A stretch of DNA of 64,000 nucleotides from Synechococcales cyanobacterium CNB (GTDB taxonomy: Bacteria; Planctomycetota; Phycisphaerae; Phycisphaerales; UBA1924): assembly GCA_030263455.1 (NCBI GenBank), contig SZOZ01000002.1:496001-560000 (forward strand), read 5' to 3'. The notes beneath the pieces are model-generated. The model was not told where the DNA came from and did no database searches. It saw only the letters and a program-made list of their open reading frames with translations. Both the position numbers and the translations under genes were made by a program. Positions 7,284 through 10,762 of this stretch are shown one piece after another. Position 1 is the first letter of the stretch; every line of letters begins with the position of its first letter.

Positions 7284-7410
7284 CCACGGCGCGGGGGCGT
7301 GACCAACCTTCTCGCGTGAAGGATGGCGGGTTTTCGGGCGTGAATCGAAGCAACCGGAGAAGCGAGCCGCCATCGACGATTCCGCGGATGCCCACTTGAC
7401 TGCGCGTTGC

Positions 7411-7530
7411 GACTCGTTATCCTCGCCTCCAGCATCAAGAGTCCCGGGTCAGCCAACTGCCCGGGCGGCAACCGAGTCGGCGTCCAGCCGGCCGCGGTGC
7501 CGAGGCCAGCCCCCGCGTGGGGAACGATGC
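7411..7530 (+). promoter_or_regulatory. SAM-clan riboswitch candidate (SAM-IV or SAM-I/IV-like)
   Basis: About 100 bases before the cystathionine-synthase-like gene. Visible parts: a closing stem TCGTT (7414-7418) with AACGA (7523-7527); CCAGCATCAAGAG (7429-7441), matching the SAM-IV-type CCAGCGUCAAG core; a stem CCCGGG...CCCGGG (from about 7443); then the SAM-clan hallmark CGGCAACC (7466-7473); and GCGGTGCC (7494-7501) followed by GAGGCCAGC, matching the conserved ...GGUGC... 3' core. SAM-sensing leaders commonly control methionine genes, which fits the gene that follows. The subclass is uncertain because a canonical SAM-I GAGGGA segment is missing. Confidence 0.7.
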
Positions 7531-7612
7531 GGCCGGAACCGTCCTCGGACGACTCGGGCAAAAAGGGCAGCGCGGTCCGCTGTCCACCCACGCACAAGGC
7601 AGGCCCGATTGA

Positions 7613-7633
7613 TGCCGTGAGGAGTTCGCGGCA
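7613..7633 (+). promoter_or_regulatory. Hairpin enclosing the ribosome binding site of the sulphur gene
   Basis: TGCCG (7613-7617) pairs with CGGCA (7629-7633), placing the GAGGAG ribosome site (7619-7624) in the loop and the A of the start codon in the stem. It could serve as the translational expression platform of the upstream riboswitch candidate; this is inference from position and pairing. Confidence 0.45.
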
Positions 7634-8901
7634 TGTGTCATTCCACCTTCGACGAACCGACTCCAGGCCCCTGCACGACCGCCATCCACGGCGGACTGGC
7701 CCCCGATCCCCAGACCGGTGCTCTTGTCACCCCCCTCGTCCAAAGCACGACCTACGTCAACGAGGCCGTGGGCGTGAGCAAGGGGCACGCCTACTCGCGG
7801 GTCTCGAACCCGACGGTGAGCGCGCTGGAGGCGCAACTGGGCGCGATCGAGGACGCTCCCCCAGCCGTCTGCTTCGTCACGGGGCTGGCCGCGGAAACCG
7901 CTCTCTTCCTCGCCCTGCTGCGCCAGGGCGACCACGCCGTGCTCGGCGACGCGATCTACGGCGGGACGGTGCGGCTCTTCCGGCAGGTGTTCAGCGGGCT
8001 GGGCGTCGAGTCCACCTTCGTCGACTCGTCCGACCCCGAGAACGTGCGGCATGCCCTTCGCCCGAACACGCGGCTCGTCTTCATCGAAAGCCCCGCCAAT
8101 CCGACCATGAAACTGACCGACATCGCGGCGGTGGCGCGGATCGCGCGCGGCGCGGGCGTGCCGCTGGCCGTGGACAACACATTCCTCACGCCCGTCATCC
8201 AGCGCCCGCTGGACCTCGGCGCGCACGTCTGCGTGTACTCGACGACCAAGCACATCGAGGGGCACTCGACGGCCATCGGCGGGTCGGTCGTCTCGCGCGA
8301 TGAGGCGCTGCTCGAGCGCGTGCGGTTCATCCGCAAATGCACCGGCGGCATCCAGGCGGCCTTCCAGGCGTGGCTGACGGTGCGGGGCGTCAAGACGCTG
8401 CCCCTCCGCCTGCGCCAGCACTCCGAGAACGCCCTGAAGGTCGCCATCGCCCTGCGCAACAACCCGCACGTCACCGCGGTCAACTACCCGGGGCTGGACG
8501 ACTTTCCGCAGCGCGACCTGGCGGCACGCCAGCACCGCGGCGGCCTCCACGGCGGGCTGCTGAGCTTCGAGGTCGCCGGCGGGACACAGGCCGCGGTGCG
8601 CGTCCTCAACGGCGTGCGGCTGTGCTCGCTCGTCGAGCACCTCGGCAGCGTGGAAACGCTCATCACGCACCCGGTAACGATGACGCACGCCGACGTGCCG
8701 CGCGAGCAGCGGCTGGCGGTCGGCATCACCGACGGGCTGATCCGACTCAGCGTGGGGCTGGAAGAACCGGAGGACGTGATCGCGGACCTGGAGCGCGCGA
8801 TCGCCGAGGCCCATCAGGGTGCACTGGGCGCCCACACCACCGGAGTGCGCGCGATCGAGGCAGAGGAAGAGAGAGGGGTGGCGCCGTGCGTGATCCGGTG
8901 A
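7633..8901 (+). CDS. metB: Cys/Met-metabolism PLP enzyme (cystathionine gamma-synthase / lyase / O-acylhomoserine sulfhydrylase family)
   Basis: A 422-residue fold-type I PLP enzyme. Family signatures are visible along the whole length: TPLVQSTTY near the N-terminus, YSRVSNPT, FIESPANPTM, AVDNTF and the PLP lysine in YSTTKHIEGHS (Lys206), then SVG near the C-terminus. The family includes cystathionine gamma-synthase, cystathionine beta/gamma-lyase and O-acylhomoserine sulfhydrylase, and residues alone do not settle which. The aspartokinase and aspartate-semialdehyde dehydrogenase genes directly downstream, and a SAM-type riboswitch candidate upstream, favour methionine synthesis from homoserine. 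Its last bases overlap the next gene, so translation is probably coupled. Confidence 0.85.
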   Translation: MCHSTFDEPTPGPCTTAIHGGLAPDPQTGALVTPLVQSTTYVNEAVGVSKGHAYSRVSNPTVSALEAQLGAIEDAPPAVCFVTGLAAETALFLALLRQGDHAVLGDAIYGGTVRLFRQVFSGLGVESTFVDSSDPENVRHALRPNTRLVFIESPANPTMKLTDIAAVARIARGAGVPLAVDNTFLTPVIQRPLDLGAHVCVYSTTKHIEGHSTAIGGSVVSRDEALLERVRFIRKCTGGIQAAFQAWLTVRGVKTLPLRLRQHSENALKVAIALRNNPHVTAVNYPGLDDFPQRDLAARQHRGGLHGGLLSFEVAGGTQAAVRVLNGVRLCSLVEHLGSVETLITHPVTMTHADVPREQRLAVGITDGLIRLSVGLEEPEDVIADLERAIAEAHQGALGAHTTGVRAIEAEEERGVAPCVIR

Positions 8902-9701
8902 TCGTGCTGAAGTTCGGCGGTTCCGTGCTACGCGACGAGGCGGCGGTGCGCGTCGCGGCTGGCGAGGTGGCCAGGTTCGTCGCCGACGGATGGCGCGTCG
9001 TCGCCGTCGTCTCAGCGCTCGAGGGAACCACGGATCGGCTGCTGGCGCAGTCGCGCGGCTACGGCGACAAGCCGCACGCCCACTCCGTCGCCCTCCTGCT
9101 CGCGACGGGCGAGCTGACCACCGCCGCGCTCCTCGGCCTCGCGCTCGCCGAGCGCGGGCTTGCGGTCGAGACGCTCGACGCGGCGTCGATCGGACTGCGC
9201 ACGACGGACGACGCGCTCGACGCATCGCCGATCTCGCTGGACGAACCGACGGTGCTCGGCACGCTCGCTCGCTCGCGGGCCGTCGTCGTGCCGGGGTTCG
9301 TCGGACGCGATTCCACGGGACGAACAACCCTGCTCGGACGCGGCGGGTCGGACCTGACCGCGCTCTTTCTCGCCGATCGCCTCGGCGCGACGTGCCGACT
9401 CGTCAAGGATGTGGACGGCCTCTACGAGTGGGACCCGGCCTCGCCCGGACCACGCCCGCGACGCTACGCCACGCTCCCGTGGGAGCAAGCGCTGCGGCTG
9501 GACGGCACGATCGTGCAGCACAAGGCCGTGCGCTGGGCGCTGGAGCGCGGACTGGCGTTCGAGGTGTCGTGCATCGGAGGACGCAGCCCGTCGAGAGTCG
9601 GTGCGCTGGGTGTGGGGTTTGAAGAAGAGGAGACGGGGCGCGCAAGACCACGCTCCGAGAGTTCGGAGAGAGAGGTGAGCGCATGCTGCGTGAGGGGCTG
9701 A
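8886..9701 (+). CDS. lysC: Short aspartokinase lacking ACT domains
   Basis: Amino-acid-kinase-fold protein of 271 residues with the aspartokinase KFGGS motif at the N-terminus, a VSAL-x-GTT segment, LATGE, and GRGGSDLTA plus DVDGLYEWDP in the second half. Aspartokinase makes aspartyl phosphate, the first step to Lys, Met and Thr. Usual enzymes have over 400 residues with two C-terminal ACT domains that bind Lys or Thr; here the protein stops soon after the catalytic domain, so classical feedback inhibition is not expected. GTG 8886 is chosen for the GAGAGGGGTGG site just upstream; GTG 8898 is the alternative. It overlaps both neighbours. Confidence 0.85.
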   Translation: MRDPVIVLKFGGSVLRDEAAVRVAAGEVARFVADGWRVVAVVSALEGTTDRLLAQSRGYGDKPHAHSVALLLATGELTTAALLGLALAERGLAVETLDAASIGLRTTDDALDASPISLDEPTVLGTLARSRAVVVPGFVGRDSTGRTTLLGRGGSDLTALFLADRLGATCRLVKDVDGLYEWDPASPGPRPRRYATLPWEQALRLDGTIVQHKAVRWALERGLAFEVSCIGGRSPSRVGALGVGFEEEETGRARPRSESSEREVSACCVRG

Positions 9702-10762
9702 TCGCGGTCGTCGGAGCGACCGGGGCAGTCGGGCGCGAGGCGCTGACCATCCTGGCGGAACGAAACGTGCCGGCATCGCGCGTCCGCGCCCTGGCAAGCG
9801 AGCGGTCGCACGGGCTACGCGTCCGCTACGGCGTGGGGGACGTCGGCGTCGGCACGCTCGGCGAGCGGTCGTTCGAGGGCGTGGGCACGGCCGTCTTCGC
9901 TGCGGACGCGGAGACCGCACGCCGCATCGTGCCTGCCGCGCTCGGTGCCGGCGCGTTCGTCGTGGACAACTCGTCGGCGTTCCGGGCCGACCCGGCCGTG
10001 CCGCTGGTGGTGCCTGAGATCAACGGCGGCGCCGTGACAGACTCGACGCGGCTCGTCGCCAACCCGAACTGCTCGACGACCATCCTGCTGCTCGCGCTCG
10101 AACCGCTGCGGCGCGCGTTCGGCGTGGTGGCGATCGACGTGGCGACTTACCAGGCCGTCTCGGGCGCGGGGCTGGCCGGGATCGAAGCCCTCCTGCGCGA
10201 AACACGCGAGGGCATCGCCACGCTGGACCGCGAAGGGTCGGCGATCGGCTGGACGCTGCAGGGCGGCGGCGCGGGGGGTGTGTTCGCCGAGCCGTGCGCG
10301 TTCAACGTCTTCAGCCACGACTCCGCGGTGGACGACACGACGGGCGTGAACGGCGAGGAGCGGAAGATGATCGACGAAACGCGGCGCATCTGGGCAGACG
10401 CCGCGATCCGCGTGACGCCGACGTGCGTGCGCGTGCCCGCCCTGCGCGCTCACACGCAGGCAATCACGGTCACGCTGGGTCGCCCGGCGTGTGAGAACGA
10501 AGTTCTCGACGCGCTGGCGGGCGGGCGCGGGCTGGAGATCGTGGACGATCGTGGCGCGAACTCGTTCCCGACGCCGCGCAAGGCCGCGGGACGCGACGAA
10601 GTGCTCGTCGGCCGCGTGCGCCCCGACCCCGGCGAGGCTGCGGGGCAGGGTCGTGCGCGTCGCCGCTGGTGCCTGCTGGCGAGCGGAGACCAGTTGCGCA
10701 AGGGGGCGGCGTTGAACGCGCTGCAGATCGCAGGGCTGTCGCCCGTGCCCGCGACCGTCTGA
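9683..10762 (+). CDS. asd: Aspartate-semialdehyde dehydrogenase
   Basis: A 359-residue protein with the N-terminal NADP-binding GATGAVG motif, the central DNSSAFR segment, the catalytic cysteine in NPNCSTT and the conserved RVPALRAHTQA region near residue 250. It reduces aspartyl phosphate to the semialdehyde, the branch point to homoserine and diaminopimelate. It overlaps the end of the aspartokinase gene by 19 bases; the pair performs consecutive steps, and with the PLP enzyme upstream forms a three-gene operon under the SAM-clan leader candidate. Length and motifs are normal for the family. Confidence 0.93.
   Translation: MLREGLIAVVGATGAVGREALTILAERNVPASRVRALASERSHGLRVRYGVGDVGVGTLGERSFEGVGTAVFAADAETARRIVPAALGAGAFVVDNSSAFRADPAVPLVVPEINGGAVTDSTRLVANPNCSTTILLLALEPLRRAFGVVAIDVATYQAVSGAGLAGIEALLRETREGIATLDREGSAIGWTLQGGGAGGVFAEPCAFNVFSHDSAVDDTTGVNGEERKMIDETRRIWADAAIRVTPTCVRVPALRAHTQAITVTLGRPACENEVLDALAGGRGLEIVDDRGANSFPTPRKAAGRDEVLVGRVRPDPGEAAGQGRARRRWCLLASGDQLRKGAALNALQIAGLSPVPATV

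Follow-up and report, generated by a model that had tools for sequence, protein, structure and literature searches.

SAM-I/IV riboswitches carry a pseudoknot, PK-2, that joins the P3 loop to the tail following P5, as the RF01725 consensus also has it. The class has a P2 without an internal loop, according to the available parts of PMC2864571 and PMC6890682, and is described without the pseudoknot PK-1 in the available part of the latter, which gives SAM-IV a P2a and P2b with an internal loop, both PK-1 and PK-2, and no P4. As for the expression platform, the available part of PMC7270179 describes a Xanthomonas SAM-I riboswitch that sequesters the AUG and the Shine-Dalgarno (SD) sequence in one hairpin and acts mainly on translation; without SAM the AUG is released, the SD sequence still being held in a short hairpin.

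The leader reported here runs from about position 7431 to the ATG at 7633 of the window, by which we mean the whole stretch of 64,000 nucleotides that was analysed, from a genome of 3.2 Mb. We consider it likely that this RNA belongs to the SAM-I/SAM-IV clan of riboswitches, responds to SAM and, forming the 5' end of a methionine operon mRNA, works as a translational OFF switch. What we observe is conservation, covariation, a position at the 5' end and a gene context, and we infer SAM as the ligand, the OFF direction and a two-state mechanism. The features of the locus are as follows (A2 is the alignment, and R1 the covariance model, described below).

7396-7423, + strand: sigma-70-like promoter, TTGACT-16-TATCCT, from a promoter-pair scan; predicts a start at about the first base of the aptamer.
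7432-7436, + strand: P1 5' strand GCAUC, also half of the putative anti-sequestor helix; R1 match, P1 paired across the riboswitch family.
7437-7441, + strand: J1/2 AAGAG, conserved core, which from SAM-I structures we take to be a SAM contact; invariant in A2, deviating in some distant matches.
7443-7465, + strand: P2 hairpin CCCGGG/CCCGGG without internal loop, loop 7449-7459; pairs and compensatory types.
7452-7454, + strand: L2 strand GCC of PK-1, partner GGC at 7504-7506; permutation 0/1000, two-sided changes in A2.
7466-7502, + strand: P3 with the core CGGCAACC...GGUGCCG; invariant A2 columns, helix analysis.
7504-7506, + strand: J3/4 strand of PK-1; family-level permutation test.
7510-7522, + strand: P4 hairpin CCCC-CGCGU-GGGG, following P3 and preceding the 3' strand of P1; A2, helix analysis.
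7526-7530, + strand: P1 3' strand GAUGC; A2, pairing across copies.
7532-7564, + strand: P5 hairpin, then CAAAAA, with a small bulge relative to the copies of two congeners; permutation test.
7565-7585, + strand: P6 hairpin, no U-run after it; predicted fold, no terminator on the + strand.
7587-7593, + strand: segment CCCACGC, complementary to P4 loop and 3' strand 7515-7521; loop-swap test, free MFE.
7609-7615, + strand: putative anti-sequestor UUGAUGC, complementary to 7432-7438; complementarity tests, predicted fold.
7612-7634, + strand: ribosome-site hairpin whose loop contains GGAG (7621-7624) and whose stem includes the start-codon A and U; hairpin scans.
7633-8901, + strand: Cys/Met-metabolism PLP enzyme, cystathionine gamma-synthase-like; PF01053, E 3e-129.
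8886-9701, + strand: aspartate kinase, catalytic domain only, 271 aa; PF00696, TIGR00656 below cut-off.
9683-10762, + strand: aspartate-semialdehyde dehydrogenase; NF011456, 330 bits, cut-off 223.

A preliminary description made from the letters of the window had proposed that a methionine gene is preceded by a riboswitch of the SAM clan and a hairpin at the ribosome site, and this proposal is supported. The core elements it named, GCATCAAGAG (7432-7441), CGGCAACC (7466-7473) and GCGGTGCC (7494-7501), are present in that order, the GAGGGA-type kink-turn element of SAM-I is missing as it said, P2 having no internal loop, and the second hairpin (AUGCCGUGA 7612-7620, loop GGAGU 7621-7625, UCGCGGCAU 7626-7634) has GGAG in its loop and pairs not only the A of the start ATG (7633-7635), as claimed, but also the U. 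The core of the SAM clan (CL00012) is there, AUCAAGAG, GGCAACC and GGUGC being closed by P1. That description went astray on the closing stem, for which it took TCGTT/AACGA: TCGTT at 7413-7417 falls in the promoter spacer, upstream of the predicted start, and the actual closing helix is GCATC 7432-7436 with GATGC 7526-7530. The search it suggested with Infernal and the Rfam SAM models divided, as no model rose over threshold on the window alone (best SAM-I-IV, RF01725, at 19.5 bits, E 2.8, cut-off 41.1), whereas relatives of the window copy gave significant matches to clan models, with RF00162 E values down to 2.9e-5.

The element is real and conserved. Among 30 loci of enzyme relatives, 22 are at least 55% identical to the downstream enzyme and 21 of these have the leader (the exception is L013); it was not found in any of the eight more distant loci. 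R1 was built from alignment A2, which takes in 16 of the initial 21 leaders and leaves out the irregular L009, L010, L011, L012 and L015. It finds one copy in the window's own genome, matching 7432-7532; this copy, itself one of the training sequences, scores 99.6 bits, and the next best place in the window 16.6. Within the class 51 of 397 genomes have an R1 match, many genomes outside the training set giving E values of 1e-16 to 1e-22, and the 97 loci of the riboswitch family score 51-113 bits as against at most 30.1 bits for canonical SAM-I and SAM-I/IV loci. On the leaders of relatives three SAM-clan models of Rfam match at the same place. All but one of these matches are below cut-off, the exception being L040 with 41.5 bits against the 41.1 of RF01725; a further relative reaches 43.5 bits with RF01725, and E values against RF00162 run from 2.9e-5 to 0.03, including 0.00098.

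These figures point to a blind spot of the library: in the window's taxonomic family R1 matches 30 of 44 genomes, whereas the Rfam cut-offs are passed in only two (G231 and G017, both for RF01725), and that of RF00162 (44.4 bits) in none of the 44, the best being G231 with 38.8 bits. Across the class SAM-I passes its cut-off in 91 of 397 genomes and SAM-I-IV in 14 of 397, two of the latter being members of the variant family. As canonical SAM-I and SAM-I/IV occur in the class, the SAM clan is unsurprising here, so that the case the preliminary description made for a planctomycete copy is weak as regards a SAM riboswitch as such; what deserves notice is the mixed architecture, together with the poor reach of the library cut-offs in this family.

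When GTDB contigs were scanned with a pattern, 76 stretches were obtained; most come from Planctomycetota, and a few belong to records under the titles Acidobacteria, Thermoanaerobaculia, Deltaproteobacteria, Rhodothermia or Cyanobacteria. One of them, L131 (RHKP01000007), is titled Cyanobacteria bacterium and carries the phycisphaeral element; its title is probably wrong and the genome probably mislabelled. In all, 92 distinct copies have the core AUCAAGAG/GGCAACC/GGUGCC in order, the search expression behind them having demanded this core, which R1 did not. The expression gave a copy in 130 of 156 loci; nine loci without a leader had been excluded beforehand and 17 R1 matches were missed, either with short downstream sequence (L080, L082, L085) or read by eye and kept outside the counts (L054, L055, L137, L141, L144, L146, L148-L154 and L156). 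As the copies are related, the permutation figures given below overstate their independence.

A promoter-like pair scoring at least 8 of 12 is found directly before the aptamer in 72 of the 80 non-redundant leaders compared to 4.2% of shuffles, and the -10 element mostly ends 6-11 nt before the aptamer. Given this position of the promoter, the transcript probably begins with the aptamer itself, and since TCGTT lies within the spacer, upstream of the -10 hexamer at 7418-7423, it is probably not transcribed. A transcription terminator was considered and rejected, the only terminator-like site being on the opposite strand; U-runs are found in only 6 of 66 leaders, and terminator-based control is unlikely.

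Covariation supports P2, P5 and PK-1. The six pairs of P2 stand in 84-90 of the 92 distinct copies, with compensatory types. For PK-1, which joins L2 with J3/4, none of 1000 permutations reaches the pairing observed at the level of the family; its variants include GCCU/AGGC, GUCU/AGAC and GCUU/AAGC, and two of its pairs show two-sided changes in A2. In the window copy PK-1 has only 3 bp, which compete with a 3-bp extension of P2. P5 is paired in 305 of 385 cells against a permuted mean of 218, a value that 0 of 1000 permutations attain (77 of the 80 leaders). A PK-2 at the P3 loop, of the SAM-IV and SAM-I/IV type, is not supported, as 175 and 47 of 1000 permutations reach the observed pairing. 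Neither the window copy nor any of the 16 A2 rows departs from the core. This combination, a P2 without internal loop, an L2-J3/4 pseudoknot, P4, and P5 followed by CAAA, matches no single described class.

Two observations lie beside this anatomy. R1 matches at L137, L144, L149, L153, L154 and L156, mostly from a sister family, have an altered J1/2 (CCUGAG, UCCGAU, CCCGAG and GAAGAG are examples, instead of CAAGAG), some with a compensated P3 (CAGC/GCUG), and these loci may possibly have changed ligand specificity or be decaying. By eye, the canonical SAM-I/IV loci L158, L160 and L161 of a sister family have a hairpin after P3 and before the 3' strand of P1, which the RF01725 consensus leaves unmodelled.

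The P4 loop is fully complementary to the copy's own segment after P6 in 33 of 59 copies, compared to 7.4% with swapped loops, and 0 of 2000 permutations reach this value; the 59 are those of the 92 copies in which a simple P4 and CAAA were found, and the test was redefined after the sequences had been seen, the loop being set at 5 nt and the tail narrowed, and was thus not blind. In its earlier form, with a loop of 3 nt and a wide tail, the observed value was reached in 108 of 400 permutations (all copies) and 227 of 400 (non-redundant) when G-U pairs were allowed, and in 21 and 72 of 400 with Watson-Crick pairs only. The loop and segment pairs found are GGCGU/ACGCC, GACGU/ACGUC, AACGU/ACGUU, GGCAU/AUGCC, UGCGU/ACGCA, UGCGA/UCGCA and UGGCG/CGCCA. 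In the window copy four of the five loop bases pair, plus three of the P4 3' strand, and the resulting helix GCGUGGG/CCCACGC forms in the free MFE. This helix may constitute a second exchange, against P4, that would reinforce the free state. Alternatively, CCCACGC and the P4 loop may form a lasting pseudoknot within the aptamer when SAM is bound, in effect a PK-2 shifted from P3 to P4, a reading to which we give slightly less than even credence. The part that covaries is the 5-nt loop, in L113 and L125 the segment CUCACGCC matches the loop better than it matches the P4 3' strand, and the place in the chain is that of SAM-IV PK-2, in which the P3 loop pairs with the end after P5. Yet the complementarity usually continues into the P4 3' strand (CCC/GGG), which would be superfluous for pairing of the loop alone, it extends in L053 up to 9 nt by eye, and the alternative helix belongs to the free MFE of the window.

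Returning to the translational OFF switch, we propose that binding of SAM stabilises P1 (GCAUC/GAUGC) and that, with P1 closed, the ribosome-site hairpin would form, with the start AUG paired in the stem and the SD sequence in the loop. Without SAM the first strand of the aptamer, GCAUCAA (up to GCAUCAAGAG in relatives), would pair with UUGAUGC (up to CUCUUGAUGC), and as the latter is the anti-AUG half of the ribosome-site hairpin, this pairing would release the AUG. Of 80 leaders, 43 have a ribosome-site hairpin with a stem of at least 8 bp, compared to 7 of 400 shuffles; stems of at least 7 bp occur in 52 leaders, with 38 different stem pairs, and in 33 of these 52 the 3' arm contains the AUG; under a permissive rule the hairpin is missing in 14 of 92 leaders. 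Complementarity of at least 7 bp between the 5' side of the hairpin and the first strand of the aptamer is seen in 36 of 59 leaders compared to 2.3% after shuffling and 0.4% for other leader windows. The flank adds at least two pairs beyond the 5-bp core in 35 of 54 leaders against 3.4%, and all five in 11 of 54, about one third of leaders having only the complement of the 5-bp core. Where P1 reads CCAUC, the partner is GAUGG or GGUGG (L121, L015), and L011 has CCAUU/GAUGG. The anatomy of the leader, as read from its complementarities, is that of two mutually exclusive states.

Folding comparisons were made on the 59 of 80 non-redundant leaders in which a hairpin stem of at least 6 bp was found, and the figures for at least 6 bp refer to 38 of those 59. 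In these 38 the predicted openness of the AUG is 0.63 with the anti-sequestor held and 0.38 with P1 held, rising by at least 0.3 in 15 and falling as much in none, and the structure with the anti-sequestor is at least as stable as that with P1 in 23. In the free ensemble of the 59 leaders the gain is slight (0.44 against 0.38 with P1 held), the mean probability of the anti-sequestor being 0.21 and that of the ribosome-site hairpin, without P1 held, 0.80. The window copy folds differently depending on the construct, the ON structure being the MFE in one and the hairpin dominating in a shorter one. The calculated energies are thus near balance and do not amount to a clean switch.

Judged by its genes, the window operon would supply the methionine branch. 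The PLP enzyme is below every NCBIfam equivalog cut-off among the matches listed, and in the aspartate kinase Pfam recognises no regulatory domain. The first gene after the 92 leaders is a Cys/Met enzyme in 82, a share inflated because 21 loci were found via the enzyme, a MoxR-type ATPase in seven and aspartate kinase in one, none being seen in two that lie at contig ends; aspartate kinase is nearby in 32 of 32 loci with at least 3.5 kb downstream. In the three MoxR loci with enough sequence a VWA-like protein follows and a diverged SAM synthetase (MetK) ends the operon.

The MoxR operon, preceded by the same riboswitch family at L066:2083-6879 and also at L097, L114, L116, L098 and L076, consists in order of a MoxR AAA ATPase, a 178-aa protein without a family, a 459-aa protein that has no Pfam match and in which we read VWA-like and HExxH-like motifs, and the diverged SAM synthetase (PF00438, PF02772, PF02773; TIGR01034 below cut-off). 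Two tandem SAM-type aptamers precede a MoxR gene at L142:1-2562 (G249:C35), and L054, L144 and L149, among the 14 loci read by eye, stand before MoxR-type genes. The operon appears to be a SAM-controlled system to which we assign no function, and the tie of a MoxR/VWA-like system to SAM through both its regulator and a MetK homologue makes a testable theme. A second paralogue of the Cys/Met enzyme (L025, L026, L028, L029) has a different conserved upstream leader, GGACATG...CATGTCC followed by CCAGCCCGG...CGGCTGG and CCGTCCGGGC, for which Rfam yields no credible match; it is possibly a new leader RNA.

Whether the element belongs to one of the known classes depends on both score and anatomy. 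It could be an ordinary SAM-I/IV riboswitch (RF01725) whose score is low only because of a G+C-rich genome and long loops, which we regard as possible though rather unlikely. RF01725 is the best-scoring model for the window copy and often for its relatives, two of which just exceed the cut-off; P1, the P3 core, the P2 without internal loop and the P5 with its CAAA are as in SAM-I/IV, the last two being traits of that class; and the three sister-family loci described above also have, by eye, the hairpin between P3 and P1. However, the variant has a covarying PK-1, absent from SAM-I/IV as described in the available part of PMC6890682, as well as the P4-loop pairing, which the swap test supports, and an extra P6; the P3-loop PK-2 is unsupported, nearly all members are below the cut-off, and with R1 the six RF01725 loci L157-L162 do not exceed 29.5 bits, four having no listed match, as against the scores of the variant family. 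On PK-1, on PK-2 and on the 19.5 bits of the window copy against the 41.1 required, we do not file the element in SAM-I/IV.

A SAM-I riboswitch that lost the kink-turn and gained a 3' P5 is an unlikely reading. P1-P4, the L2-J3/4 pseudoknot and the core are those of the S box (RF00162), P4 and PK-1 being SAM-I traits; RF00162 gives the best E value for several members (2.9e-5 and 0.00098 among them), and canonical SAM-I is common in sister families. Against it, P2 is without the internal loop and kink-turn, P5, located downstream of P1 and followed by CAAA, is a feature of SAM-IV and SAM-I/IV and not of SAM-I, and no genome of the 44 passes the RF00162 cut-off, on which grounds, with the kink-turn, we do not file it in SAM-I. 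That another ligand of methionine metabolism such as SAH is sensed, as the altered J1/2 of distant matches and the control of MoxR operons by a subset might suggest, is highly improbable given the intact core in the window copy and all A2 rows and target genes that make methionine or SAM.

The SAM-IV identity favoured in the preliminary description fails as well: PK-1 and P5 are shared with SAM-IV (RF00634), but P2 has no internal loop, P4 is present and a P3-loop PK-2 is without covariation support, which rules out membership, and RF00634 is the best model of the clan in just two weak matches (L006, 26.9 bits; L008, 23.8 bits). As the element fails on a defining feature of each of the three classes, we file it as a new variant of the clan. 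The literature searched on SAM riboswitches, planctomycetes and MoxR, with most subscription papers outside its scope, gave no description of it, and relative to that literature the variant appears to be new and to combine traits held to separate classes. It may represent a fourth architecture of the SAM-I/SAM-IV clan, a proposal we put at even strength, with a SAM-I-like junction (PK-1 and P4), a SAM-IV-like P5, a P4 loop that replaces the P3 loop in long-range pairing, and a binding strand of the aptamer that doubles as anti-sequestor, controlling in addition the operon of MoxR ATPase, VWA-like protein and diverged SAM synthetase.

The met operon leader of Xanthomonas campestris, in the available part of PMC7270179, resembles the variant in its anti-AUG and anti-SD hairpin and in the translational control of a methionine operon; it differs in that the aptamer there is SAM-I, whereas in the variant the anti-AUG arm has its complement in the aptamer's own first strand together with J1/2. 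In the terms of PMC6890682, as far as the available part sets them out, P2 is as in SAM-I/IV, PK-1 and P4 are as in SAM-I and P5 is as in SAM-IV. The variant is a natural bridge between SAM-I, SAM-I/IV and SAM-IV, and by this position it bears on how different peripheral scaffolds came to carry one ligand pocket.
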